From the NCBI RefSeq assembly GCF_002868735.1, contig NZ_CP025613.1, forward strand, positions 372,001 to 436,000: a stretch of 64,000 nt of DNA, read 5' to 3'. The position numbers and the translations under genes were made by a program. Shown in pieces: positions 33,629-36,609 of the stretch. The notes beneath the pieces were generated by a model. That model was not told the origin of the DNA. It did no database searches and was given only the letters and a program-made list of their open reading frames with translations. This DNA comes from Niveispirillum cyanobacteriorum (GTDB lineage Bacteria > Pseudomonadota > Alphaproteobacteria > Azospirillales > Azospirillaceae). The first letter of the stretch is position 1; each line of letters begins with the position of its first letter.

Positions 33629-33676
33629 AAAAAAGGCGCCTAAACGATCCGGGGGTGACCCAGATGTTCAGACGCC
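33629..33676 (-). terminator. intrinsic terminator (attenuator) in porin leader
   Basis: Minus strand GGCGTCTGAAC pairs with GTTTAGGCGCC (11 pairs, two G-U), followed by TTTTTT. It stands 15 bases before the porin start and overlaps the second hexaloop hairpin, so the two structures exclude each other. Confidence 0.75.
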
Positions 33677-33732
33677 ATTGTCCGGCGGGACCGGCGGGCC
33701 GGCCCTATGAAGGGGAACCGCCATTGGTCCCC
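33669..33732 (-). promoter_or_regulatory. two-hairpin ANTAR-type RNA target in porin leader
   Basis: Hairpin P1 (33712-33732): GGGGACC-AATGGC-GGTTCCCC with one bulge. Hairpin P2 (33669-33684): CGGAC-AATGGC-GTCTG with one wobble. Both loops are AATGGC, with A at position 1 and G at position 4. P1 begins only about three bases after the predicted transcription start, and the P2 loop/3' arm is the left arm of the terminator. This is the classical layout of NasR/NasT-type antitermination. Confidence 0.7.
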
Positions 33733-33745
33733 GCCGAATGGTTAA

Positions 33746-33761
33746 CGCAAATTTTGTGCCG
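33746..33761 (-). promoter_or_regulatory. sigma-54-like promoter of porin/NIT-chemoreceptor genes
   Basis: Minus strand reads CGGCACA-AAAT-TTGCG: GGCAC and TTGC match the -24/-12 consensus at exact spacing. About 40 bases upstream (33801-33819) TGCACC and GGCGCA halves resemble an NtrC site, but the spacer is two bases longer than canonical. Confidence 0.6.
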
Positions 33762-33852: not shown

Positions 33853-36531
33853 TCACTCTGCCGGCAGCGCATCCCCGATCAGGGCCAGGTTCTGATAGGC
33901 GGCCAGACCCCATTGCGAGACGCCATTGGTGGACATGCCCGCTACCTCATCCACGGGGTTCAGGACGGCGTTGCCGGCGATGTGGGTGCGGCTGCCGGCA
34001 ATCTGTTCCCCCTTGTCGGTGAACTCTGCCCAGGCGCGGGCCGCCAGTTTCGGGTCTTTCAGATGGTGGGCCGCATAGGCGGTGAGACGGGAATGGGCCA
34101 GACGCAGGCCGCGCCCCTTCGCGTCCTGACCAAATCTGGCCCGGAACTCCGCCGCCGGGGCGTTGTAGAAGGTGCAGTATTCCAGCCAGGCGGCGCGGTA
34201 TTCCGACACATCCAGCAGGGCCAACAGCTCGGCATGCACCTCCACCGCGCCAAACACCGCCGACAGGTGAGAAACCCCGATCTTGTCGCCGGGGCCGGAG
34301 AATTTACCGGTGTTCGGGTCATAGGGGGCGCCGCCCGCCATCCAGCGATGTTTCAGGGCGGCGATGGTGCGCATGCCGTTGGTGATGCGGTCGCGCCAGC
34401 GCTTATCGCCTGTGCGTTCCCATTCCGTCAGCCAAGCGGCCACCAGGGAGGACCAGGTTGTGCCAAATCCTGCCTCGATCACGCCGGGCGGAGTGGGGTT
34501 GGGCAGTTTGCGGCTGATATCGACATTGGCCAGCGTCCGGTCGCTATCCACCAGATCGCGCATCAGGTCGCCCACCCGTTCGTCGGCGGTCAGGTAGTAG
34601 TAGATGCGGCGATAGGCAGCGTTGGACACGCGCGGCTGTTTGGAGCTGTCGGCCCAGTGCTGCACCCCGTGGCGGGTGCCGAACCCCTTGTAGGGGCCGA
34701 TATGGCAGACATCCACCTCGCCTGTGTGCCGGGTCATCGCCTCTGCCAGCCGGAACACTTCCGCGCGGCCCGTGCGCAGGAAGCTGTACCAGAGCCAGAG
34801 ATCGGGCGAGAGTTCGGAATTGGCCCAGGCATAGCCGCCAATATCATAGCGCCATTCATGACGGTCACTGTCATAGGAATGCATGACATCGCCATAGTTC
34901 CAGAACCCATACCAGCGCCGCTGTTCCACCTGATCGCGGTACAGGTTCAGCAGGAAATCGGCCTGATCCTCGATCCGGGTGCGGGCGGGTGTGCCGCGGC
35001 TGACCAGGTCCCAATCGCCGAAGATCGGCACGGCGCGCAATCGGGCCGGCGGCACCATCAGGCGCGGCGGGGCCGCCAGAATACCGGCGGTTTGCGTGAA
35101 CCAATCACGCGCCGGCGTGGCGGACAGGGACCACAGATGCAGTTCGGTGGTGCGGGCAATACCATAGGGCCGGCCCCAGCCCTCCTCATAATCCTCATAG
35201 GTGATTTCCAGGGCTTCGCGTTCCTGGGGGTGGGTCTTGATGCCCAGCCCGTCATGATAAAAGCGAAGATCCATGGCGGGTGCGTCGGGCGACCACAACC
35301 AGGCGGTCAGTTCTGCATTGTCGGTCGCCGCGTTGCGCACATCTAGGCGGGCCGGATGCCGCTTCCAGAAATCGTTCATGGCCAGGGCGGCACCACCCGC
35401 CGCCCCACCGACATAGGCCAGCCCGCCGGCACGGCGCCCCGCCTGCGCATCGATCCAGCCATGGCCGGGCTTGGTGCGTTTACGGATGGCAAAGCCGTCG
35501 GCATTGGCCTGCGACAGGGTGAAATCACCCCAGGTTGGGATCAGGTCCAGACGCTTCGACACCGTTTCGGCCATGCCGGACAAAGCCGGGATGGCGCGGC
35601 CATCGATCTGCGCCTGACGGTAGTCCTTGCCGGGATCGCGGCGCAGGCCGGTCAGCGGGCGGATGGCCTCCGCCCACAAGCCATCTCCTTCGCCTGTGAA
35701 GCGTACATGCCGGTCATGCGGGGCGTCGGACATCGGGACAGAGGCGGTGAGGCCCAGGCCCCGGATGAAATCCTTGTTCTCATCCCCGTCGAAGATAAAG
35801 GAATGCAGGATACGGACGGATTCAGCACCAGCATGGAAGTAAAGTCGGATGGTAAAGGGCAGCCAGGACCGCTCCCCATCACGATGCGCCCCTTCCAGCT
35901 TCACCACGGCCCGTACTGGCCCCCGCTGTTCCACCGTCACGGCGGTGACGGCGCCGATGGAGCGGCGCTGGCTGACCGTTTCCGCCTCTGTTAGGTCGGG
36001 CTGGTCCTGCGACAGGCAGATAAGACGCAGATCGCGCAGAACCATTCGGCCATCGATGGTCGCGCTGTCGATCAAGCGGTCGCCGCGCACGGGAATGCGC
36101 CATTGCCGGGGACCGGTGGTGACCGTGATCGCGTCGGCGCCTTCCGTCACCTTCACGGGCTGCGCCGGTTCCGTGGCCTTGCCGGCGGACAGAGTCAGGC
36201 CAGAGGTACCGGCCCCCGCGCCCACGCTGTGCGCCGACCATTTCAGCGATCCGTCAGGCCAGGTGGCCAGCGGCCAGGATTGCACCGGCACCGCCGCCCC
36301 CGACCCATCGGTCAGGCGGAAACGTTGTGCCGGCTTGTACAGGCCCTGCGGCCAGGGCACGCCCCAGGTCTGTCCCAGATGGCGGGCAGGGGCCGCACCG
36401 TCGATCCAGCCGACGGGCGTGTCGGGCGCCGATGGTTTGGCCTGCGCTGCTATGCCGGCCCCACCGCTGGCAAGGGCGGTAAGCGCCGTTGCCTGCATGA
36501 ATTGCCGCCGGTTGACGCCAGGCAGGTTCAT
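33853..36531 (-). CDS. exo-rhamnogalacturonan lyase-like protein (YetA/PcRGLX family)
   Basis: 892-aa exported protein. The N-terminus is a Tat-like signal (VNRRQFMQATALTALASGG). It shows the RIFT-barrel-plus-(alpha/alpha)6 arrangement of YetA/PcRGLX-type proteins: an N-terminal beta region with GVPWPQGLY and WPDGSLKWSAHSVG, the middle WYGFWNYGDVMHSYDSDRHEWRYD motif and later WLWYSFLRTGRAEVFRLAEAM and DVCHIGPYKGFGTRHGVQHW. These proteins act on rhamnogalacturonan from the chain end. Start at 36531 chosen for the signal peptide. Divergent from a PL11 lyase across a region with FadR-like operators. Confidence 0.75.
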   Translation of the reverse strand: MNLPGVNRRQFMQATALTALASGGAGIAAQAKPSAPDTPVGWIDGAAPARHLGQTWGVPWPQGLYKPAQRFRLTDGSGAAVPVQSWPLATWPDGSLKWSAHSVGAGAGTSGLTLSAGKATEPAQPVKVTEGADAITVTTGPRQWRIPVRGDRLIDSATIDGRMVLRDLRLICLSQDQPDLTEAETVSQRRSIGAVTAVTVEQRGPVRAVVKLEGAHRDGERSWLPFTIRLYFHAGAESVRILHSFIFDGDENKDFIRGLGLTASVPMSDAPHDRHVRFTGEGDGLWAEAIRPLTGLRRDPGKDYRQAQIDGRAIPALSGMAETVSKRLDLIPTWGDFTLSQANADGFAIRKRTKPGHGWIDAQAGRRAGGLAYVGGAAGGAALAMNDFWKRHPARLDVRNAATDNAELTAWLWSPDAPAMDLRFYHDGLGIKTHPQEREALEITYEDYEEGWGRPYGIARTTELHLWSLSATPARDWFTQTAGILAAPPRLMVPPARLRAVPIFGDWDLVSRGTPARTRIEDQADFLLNLYRDQVEQRRWYGFWNYGDVMHSYDSDRHEWRYDIGGYAWANSELSPDLWLWYSFLRTGRAEVFRLAEAMTRHTGEVDVCHIGPYKGFGTRHGVQHWADSSKQPRVSNAAYRRIYYYLTADERVGDLMRDLVDSDRTLANVDISRKLPNPTPPGVIEAGFGTTWSSLVAAWLTEWERTGDKRWRDRITNGMRTIAALKHRWMAGGAPYDPNTGKFSGPGDKIGVSHLSAVFGAVEVHAELLALLDVSEYRAAWLEYCTFYNAPAAEFRARFGQDAKGRGLRLAHSRLTAYAAHHLKDPKLAARAWAEFTDKGEQIAGSRTHIAGNAVLNPVDEVAGMSTNGVSQWGLAAYQNLALIGDALPAE

Positions 36532-36565
36532 CGTCGTTTCCTTCCCTATCCCGATTTTTACCACA

Positions 36566-36609
36566 ATGTGATACATCATCCTTAATATTGGAATTCAAAT
36601 ATCATACGA
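36566..36609. promoter_or_regulatory. paired FadR-like operator motifs between two rhamnogalacturonan lyase genes
   Basis: ATGTGATACAT (36566-36576, perfect ATGT-N3-ACAT palindrome) and, on the minus strand, TCGTATGATAT (36599-36609). Both align with the TTGTATGACAT motif found before rhaM, nine of eleven bases each. Lying in the 119-base divergent gap, they could control both lyases through the same GntR-type regulator. Confidence 0.45.

Follow-up and report, generated by a model that had tools for sequence, protein, structure and literature searches.

A probable NasT-dependent nitrate attenuator before an outer-membrane porin gene of Niveispirillum cyanobacteriorum

Nitrate antitermination, in the portions of the cited papers available to us, concerns reductases, transporters and other enzymes. 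Does it also reach the outer membrane? The question is raised by a 64,000-nucleotide stretch of Niveispirillum cyanobacteriorum DNA (contig NZ_CP025613.1, positions 372,001 to 436,000; hereafter the window), in which an initial annotation placed two hairpins with identical hexaloops, an overlapping terminator and a sigma-54 promoter before an outer-membrane channel gene. Overall, we believe that this leader is very probably a NasT-dependent transcription attenuator under nitrate control, a conclusion drawn from sequence comparison and from analogy with homologous systems. Its parts are as follows.

33761-33746, minus strand: sigma-54-like promoter CGGCACAAAATTTGCG (-24/-12), upstream of the porin leader hairpins
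33732-33713, minus strand: hairpin I, GGGGACC[AATGGC]GGTTCCC, 7 bp, loop with A1 and G4; proposed recruitment hairpin
33705-33688, minus strand: hairpin II, GGGCCGG-CCCG-CCGGTCC, 7 bp, without an ANTAR loop; proposed spacer
33684-33669, minus strand: hairpin III, CGGAC[AATGGC]GTCTG, 5 bp, the second hairpin of the initial annotation; proposed antiterminator hairpin
33676-33629, minus strand: intrinsic terminator (stem 33676-33635, T6 33634-33629)
33624-33621, minus strand: Shine-Dalgarno-like GGAG, read from the sequence
33614-32394, minus strand: porin gene, Alginate_exp family (ATG 33614-33612)

All parts of the leader lie on the strand of the porin, whose start is probably this ATG, the listed open reading frame start (TTG 33626) being probably wrong; judging from the position of the promoter, transcription would begin near 33735. 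The twin AATGGC hexaloop hairpins are present before the porin, at 33732-33713 and 33684-33669, and with stems of 7 and 5 bp they form a dual-hexaloop target (two stems of 3 bp or more, each bearing a loop with A1 and G4). This is the sole site in the window, on either strand, at which two A1/G4 hexaloop hairpins of at least 5 bp with identical loops stand 14-60 nt apart. The initial annotation was also right that the second hairpin shares bases with the left arm of a T-tailed terminator: the terminator stem, of 18 bp with one bulge, runs from 33676, in the loop of hairpin III, to the end of its right arm at 33635, with a fold of -29.0 kcal/mol (z -5.49) that none of 200 shuffles equalled. Because the left arm begins in that loop, the terminator and hairpin III are mutually exclusive, as in other leaders whose second hairpin excludes an intrinsic terminator. 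No Rfam family was matched at its gathering cut-off anywhere in the 64-kb window. When the RNA up to hairpin III is folded without constraint, the three-hairpin form is the minimum in the porin leaders of N. lacus (genome G008, locus L022) and of the MAG isolate Gw_Bodden (G006, L023; hereafter the Bodden MAG), whereas the window leader and that of G010 reach rearranged structures, lower by 6.1 and 4.9 kcal/mol respectively, that break hairpin I; co-transcriptional folding may or may not avoid the rearranged fold in these two.

Which protein could read such a leader? The genome (6,048,780 bases in five contigs) holds a single ANTAR match over the Pfam cut-off, a protein of 202 aa with a receiver and an ANTAR domain and no NIT domain, encoded on contig C4 beside genes for an NMT1_2 protein, an MFS transporter, a nitrite/sulphite reductase and a molybdopterin reductase. 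From gene company we take these five to be NasT, NasS, a nitrate transporter, NirB and NasC. Since the only ANTAR protein over the cut-off is of the receiver-ANTAR kind, the partner of the porin leader would be NasT; NasR is ruled out, because that sole match is not a NIT-ANTAR protein. Thus, of the two antiterminators named by the initial annotation, NasT stands, next to a NasS-like gene, and NasR falls. The nirB gene on contig C4 has a leader of its own, comprising TGGCACGCCATTCGCA, GGGGTCC[AAGGCC]GGGCCCC and CGGAT[AATGGC]GTCCG, followed by a terminator. By eye, several Niveispirillum nirB leaders (L002, L104-L109) carry an extra upstream stem with variable loops before their two hexaloop hairpins.

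The covariance-model search that had been proposed as a check was made with a model, R1, built here from nas leaders: two Niveispirillum nirB leaders and three Parvibaculum-group porin leaders, over 37 positions, five sequences in all, so that its E-values are rough. The window leader was excluded from training, although one training row contains the sequence of its hairpin III. In its own genome, where 150 of 5256 first-look candidates were scored, R1 ranked the porin leader second (32.3 bits, E 1.6e-4), after the nirB leader used in training (56.8 bits) and before the next match (21.9 bits, E 0.08). With filters off, R1 put the middle stem into its first-hairpin slot at 28.3 bits, and aligned hairpin I as a separate first hairpin at 15.2 bits. 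Eleven genomes of the genus gave 24 matches at E 0.05, comprising a nirB-type leader in nine genomes (the contigs of G005 and G006 stop short of nirB), the porin leader in four (G000, G006, G008 and G010; the porin of G005 sits at the end of its contig), a leader next to an MFS gene in three, and eight matches at no recognisable nas gene. One N. lacus match, L140 (G008:C11:48261-48296), scored 29.0 bits, above the 25.6 bits of the porin leader there; no nas gene was found within the 3 kb fetched around it, and it is either a chance match or an additional target. Across 385 genomes of the class, 19 had a match at E 0.01, 23 matches in all, 13 of them no more than 1.5 kb from an nrtA/nasS-like, nirB, nasT or porin homologue and the other ten without such a neighbour. 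Among those 13 is L124, another relative of the porin with 43% identity, in which the hairpin detector described below found no full array. The specificity of R1 is insufficient on its own.

It is in the spacing of the hexaloops that the locus departs from the published short form. The eut linkers of Enterococcus faecalis measure 5-12 nt, and 14 nt drastically reduced induction (PMC3369931); in vitro, a linker of +20 nt abolished antitermination by EutV (PMC8934654), as far as the available parts of these two papers describe. The expected short spacing is not found here: hairpins I and III are separated by 28 nt in the window and in G010, and by 30 nt in two relatives, with a third hairpin inside the linker. 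The 2012 search definition of dual-hexaloop targets, in the text available, allows a variable linker (PMC3369931), and we therefore take the 28-nt spacing as a variant rather than as grounds for exclusion. A nearer canonical hexaloop hairpin within the linker was sought with a relaxed scan (A or G at loop position 1, G4, at least 3 bp), which found only hairpins I and III in all four leaders.

What the linker holds instead is stem II, of 6-7 bp, kept in four of four Niveispirillum species with the loops CCCG, TCCG, CATCT and TGCAT, at the position occupied in nirB leaders by the first hexaloop hairpin. In six Parvibaculum-group leaders all three positions are occupied by AAYGNC hexaloop hairpins, the first stem having one mismatch in three of them. 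The simplest history for the Niveispirillum porin leader would be the erosion of the middle loop in a three-stem array. Tentatively, and with rather more doubt than belief, we extend this to many alphaproteobacterial nas leaders, which might be three-stem ANTAR arrays in which either all stems carry a hexaloop (the Parvibaculum group, with two recruitment hairpins) or one has turned into a folded spacer (Niveispirillum stem II). Were that so, the EutV spacing rule would concern distance along the folded RNA and not linker length, and NasT could pass along a relay of hairpins. Linkers of 28 nt also occur in Tepidicaulis L031, where the linker folds at only -2.0 kcal/mol, and in the near relative of L031, L029, where it reaches -6.1 kcal/mol; the linker of L093, of 16 nt, is without structure. 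Because the linkers of L031 and L093 are scarcely or not structured, the spacer idea is not general. The porin leader is nonetheless a natural experiment on the spacing of ANTAR hexaloops, and its layout bears on how far apart they may stand and on whether a stem in between can span the gap.

The same layout raises the question of whether hairpin I is needed at all. A leader in which it is a dispensable remnant, with NasT acting on hairpin III alone or on II and III, would agree with a spacing that lies beyond the published limits, with the placement of stem II in the first-hairpin slot of R1, and with the single hexaloop as the minimal ANTAR binding unit described in the available text of the EutV structure paper (PMC8934654). 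Against this, the outer loops of the Niveispirillum porin leaders keep AAYGGC, and with it the A1 and G4 of hairpin I, in four of four species, whereas no two of these share a loop II; the Parvibaculum group keeps all three loops; and the same paper, in that text, has antitermination require contact with each hexaloop (PMC8934654). We regard a dispensable hairpin I as unlikely, and retain it below as the recruitment hairpin of a NasT attenuator.

If the leader belongs to nitrate metabolism, it should be sought where porin relatives keep that company. A pattern scan of genome contigs gave at least 456 porin relatives, of which the best 80 were kept, and the 450 nt upstream of each porin were searched with a detector requiring two A1/G4 hexaloop hairpins of at least 4 bp, the second overlapped by a T-tailed terminator. 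Twelve of these best 80 of at least 456 were positive, and dinucleotide shuffles of the 80 upstream stretches gave the full architecture once in 800. By gene company 28 of the same 80 loci are nas-linked, and the leader occurs in 12 of these 28 and in none of the other 52 (Fisher p 5e-7, kinship ignored). R1 made 12 matches in eight of the 28 nas-linked loci, seven of the 12 being training sequences or identical to them, and no match in the other 52 porin loci (786 kb); it misses the leaders of L029, L031, L036, L037 and L093.

Within the nas-linked loci, grouped by gene order after the fact, the leader goes with the place of the porin. With the porin at the head of structural genes (followed by nrtA or the chemoreceptor, and not directly preceded by an nrt or nas structural gene), 12 of 13 loci among the best 80 of at least 456 have it, the exception being L063. 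Where the porin follows nrtC, nasC or nasS (L030, L053, L057, L069, L073, L085, L090) or precedes nasTS (L036, L060, L067, L075, L077, L078, L097), it is found in none of 14; L072 fits neither arrangement, and in L036 a leader stands before nrtA instead of the porin. In L063 (8770-8860) the porin heads nrtA behind a sigma-54-like site, TGGCACGAATGCTGCA, and no ANTAR array is detectable. Nor was an array detected in L060, L067, L075, L077, L078 or L097 (porin match from 9001; from 6263 in L078); in L075 a GC hairpin with T6 lies about 70 nt before the porin start.

The 12 positives come from about five lineages (Niveispirillum, the Parvibaculum group, Tepidicaulis/UBA4490, Alpha proteobacterium Mf 1.05b.01 and a Chromatiaceae MAG) and are not 12 independent events; a leader of the Mf type was also recognised by eye in G043, which belongs to another family of the class. 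The Parvibaculum-group leaders have much of the sequence of hairpin III and the terminator foot in common with Niveispirillum, whereas L037/G043 and the gammaproteobacterial MAG L093 are alike in architecture with little sequence in common. All four Niveispirillum genomes with an intact porin 5' end have the leader. Conservation of the loops in relatives, a test set beforehand, bore the initial annotation out: both loops retain their A1 and G4 in all four, and likewise in leaders of other families. Both sides have changed in four of five and in five of six pairs (13 and 2 of 500 shuffles, respectively, reach that), and no shuffle in 500 reached the covariation score. These counts rest on 7 and 12 hand-picked hairpins, most from a detector that demands four paired bases, A1 and G4; they omit the Niveispirillum nrtA hairpins, the L069 and L072 hairpins and the spacer stems, and exclude four alignments with some hairpins out of register. 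Since the hairpins were preselected for pairing, the counts are biased, and we treat them as support only.

Over whole loci (2.74 Mb, both strands) the two-hairpin detector made 20 matches. Four of these, two in L048 and one each in L027 and L055, are not at a nas gene and probably arose by chance. A single hairpin of at least 5 bp with a terminator is unspecific, with 19 matches in nas-linked loci and 17 in the others; at 4 bp or more, the single-hairpin detector picked up the porin and nrtA leaders in the window and two further matches.

Could the leader act on translation or RNA stability instead of termination? Some ANTAR targets lie at ribosome-binding sites, according to the available text of the survey (PMC3369931), and here the T tract ends just 4 nt before the GGAG. 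A strong stem with T6 that uses the bases of hairpin III is nonetheless the classical arrangement of an attenuator, and T tracts occur in all 12 detected porin leaders, though the detector requires them; control of translation or stability therefore seems very improbable. That the T-tailed hairpin is merely the ordinary terminator of the 908-aa gene upstream (33853-36579), with the AATGGC hairpins incidental, is hardly credible: that gene does lie on the same strand, ends 176 nt before the hairpin and is also the neighbour in G010, but a search at E 1e-5 of the 9 kb preceding the porin gave no such gene in N. lacus or the Bodden MAG, where leader and terminator are conserved, the order of hairpins and terminator is maintained in the leaders of other families, and the array occurs in none of the 52 porins outside nas loci (best 80 of at least 456).

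With attenuation as the preferred reading, what would the switch control? The porin matches Pfam Alginate_exp at 26.5 bits (cut-off 25.2), a family matched at E 0.001 by all seven aligned members of the porin family. Its AlphaFold2 model is an 18-strand barrel (pLDDT 84.6, pTM 0.81) with Occ/OprD channels, Campylobacter MOMP and AlgE as nearest folds; Occ/OprD and AlgE are likewise 18-strand barrels, with a query TM-score of 0.58-0.71 among the matches listed, at 11-16% identity. PDB sequences searched with the porin profile up to E 1 gave no relative. To judge by gene company, its substrate may be nitrate. Downstream of the porin follow:

32325-30358, minus strand: NIT-domain methyl-accepting chemotaxis protein, 68 nt after the porin (NIT 188.6 bits, MCPsignal 110.5 bits)
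30177-30162, minus strand: sigma-54-like promoter of the nrtA leader, TGGCATGTTTCTCGCT, 9/11
30076-29988, minus strand: nrtA attenuator leader, GGTTCC[GACGCT]GGGATC, TGGAGC[AACGGC]GCTCCG, overlapping terminator, T tract from 29993
29943-28633, minus strand: NrtA-like binding protein (NMT1_2 368.5 bits)
28612-27740, minus strand: NrtB nitrate ABC transporter permease (TIGR01183 over the NCBIfam cut-off)
27727-26930, minus strand: NrtC nitrate ABC transporter ATPase (TIGR01184 over the NCBIfam cut-off)

The porin thus stands in a nitrate gene set, with the NIT chemoreceptor and nrtABC behind it; to be added is the separate leader of nrtA, absent from the initial annotation and recognised by eye and with the single-hairpin detector. 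In our reading the NrtA-like protein starts at ATG 29943 and would carry a TAT-type signal. The layout of the nrtA leader recurs in five further Niveispirillum genomes (G003, G005, G006, G008, G010), with an interrupted T tract in G003 and G006 (GTTTTCATTTT) and with GACGCT as first loop (G1, not A1) everywhere except G005 (AACGCT); R1 scores it at 11.9 bits in the window (E 0.33), not above chance. Since nrtABC appears to own a switch, the porin leader would govern at least the porin and the chemoreceptor. The latter lies between porin and nrtA in the window genome, N. lacus, G010 and G005, but locus L023 of the Bodden MAG gave no NIT chemoreceptor match. Nitrate chemotaxis may thus be switched together with nitrate uptake, and the porin, with its chemoreceptor, is a candidate for a nitrate-inducible, perhaps nitrate-selective, channel.

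The promoter is a different matter. Measured against the consensus (GG-N10-GC within a TGGCAC-N5-TTGC context), the window porin site CGGCACAAAATTTGCG has 9 of 11 letters, which 123 of 2000 shuffles of the upstream stretch equal, so that it is weak evidence alone; sites with two mismatches number 40 in the window against 43 expected. Its GG and GC are invariant in the four Niveispirillum leaders (window and three relatives), and rpoN is present in the genome. GG-N10-GC sites of 9-11 of 11 letters stand before the leaders of Niveispirillum (porin, nrtA, nirB), L037, L036 and L093. The shuffles as good, each out of 2000, number 64 for the window nrtA, 78 and 10 for the porins of N. lacus and the Bodden MAG, 6 and 1 for nirB and nrtA of N. 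lacus, 10 for L037 and none for L036 and L093; better sites thus stand before sister leaders than before the window porin. In the Parvibaculum and Tepidicaulis groups, no site before eight of the leaders exceeds 6 of 11 letters, and the type of promoter therefore lies outside the conserved unit. Elsewhere, an MFS transporter gene on contig C4 of G000 has a perfect sigma-54 consensus, TGGCACGGCCATTGCT (L002 8087-8152, plus strand), and in the same upstream region a hairpin CGTCC[AACGGC]GGACG, where G001 and G009 have two AATGGY hairpins; no terminator with a T tract is evident there, and control of this gene may be of a different sort from terminator attenuation.

The general course of the proposed control can still be set out. 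In Paracoccus, by the available account, NasT binds the nasA leader and nitrate dissociates NasS from NasT (PMC3795266). Consider, then, a Niveispirillum cell short of nitrogen, in which sigma-54, presumably with NtrC, would start transcription near 33735. Without nitrate, NasS would hold NasT, the terminator at 33676-33629 would form and no porin would be made, as homologous systems lead one to expect. With nitrate, NasS would release NasT, hairpin I would recruit it, and NasT would capture hairpin III as it emerges; with hairpin III captured, the left arm of the terminator would be occupied and the polymerase would read on into the porin and NIT chemoreceptor genes. Hairpin II would serve as a passive spacer: with 18 of the 28 linker bases taken up in its fold, about ten would stay unpaired, within the 5-12 nt of eut. 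With leaders alike before nrtABC and nirB, outer-membrane entry, inner-membrane uptake and reduction would share one nitrate sensor. Comparison favours this ANTAR nitrate-antiterminator reading, first put forward in the initial annotation, as the best supported one, through the R1 match, the sole NasT and the nas-linked loci.

How does the locus compare with known systems, as far as the available parts of the respective papers describe them? NasR/nasF of Klebsiella oxytoca is alike in its A1/G4 hexaloop hairpins, terminator overlap and nitrate signal (PMC3369931), but NasR joins NIT and ANTAR domains in one protein (PMC3369931), whereas here the partner would be a receiver-ANTAR NasT with a separate NasS, on another target. 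EutV/eutP of Enterococcus faecalis likewise has two hexaloops, the second exclusive with the terminator (PMC3369931, PMC8934654), with linkers of 5-12 nt (PMC3369931), in contrast to the 28-30 nt and conserved hairpin of 6-7 bp found here. In Bradyrhizobium diazoefficiens one NasT similarly serves several leaders (nosR, nirA, coxS and others; PMC6759348); the word porin does not occur in the available text of that regulon paper (PMC6759348), and blr1311, for an outer membrane protein, is listed there as raised in the nasT mutant, the reverse of what is proposed here (PMC6759348). Open-access literature, in the titles and abstract openings of the matches listed, contained no ANTAR leader before a porin and no three-hexaloop ANTAR target.

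The closest likeness is NasT/NasS-nasA of Paracoccus denitrificans (PMC3795266, PMC5424462), with its NasT-NasS pair, hairpins before nitrate assimilation genes and Ntr control on top, again in the parts of those papers available. Here, by contrast, the target is a porin, with a chemoreceptor, on a contig other than that of nasTS, and a sigma-54-like site stands directly before a leader that is a three-stem array. Thus, as far as we have searched, the mechanism, a NasT leader, is known, and the target gene, a porin, and the layout, three stems at long spacing, are new. In several lineages a switch of this kind stands before an outer-membrane channel gene, and the leaders before these related channel genes suggest that the outer-membrane entry step, too, is under nitrate control.
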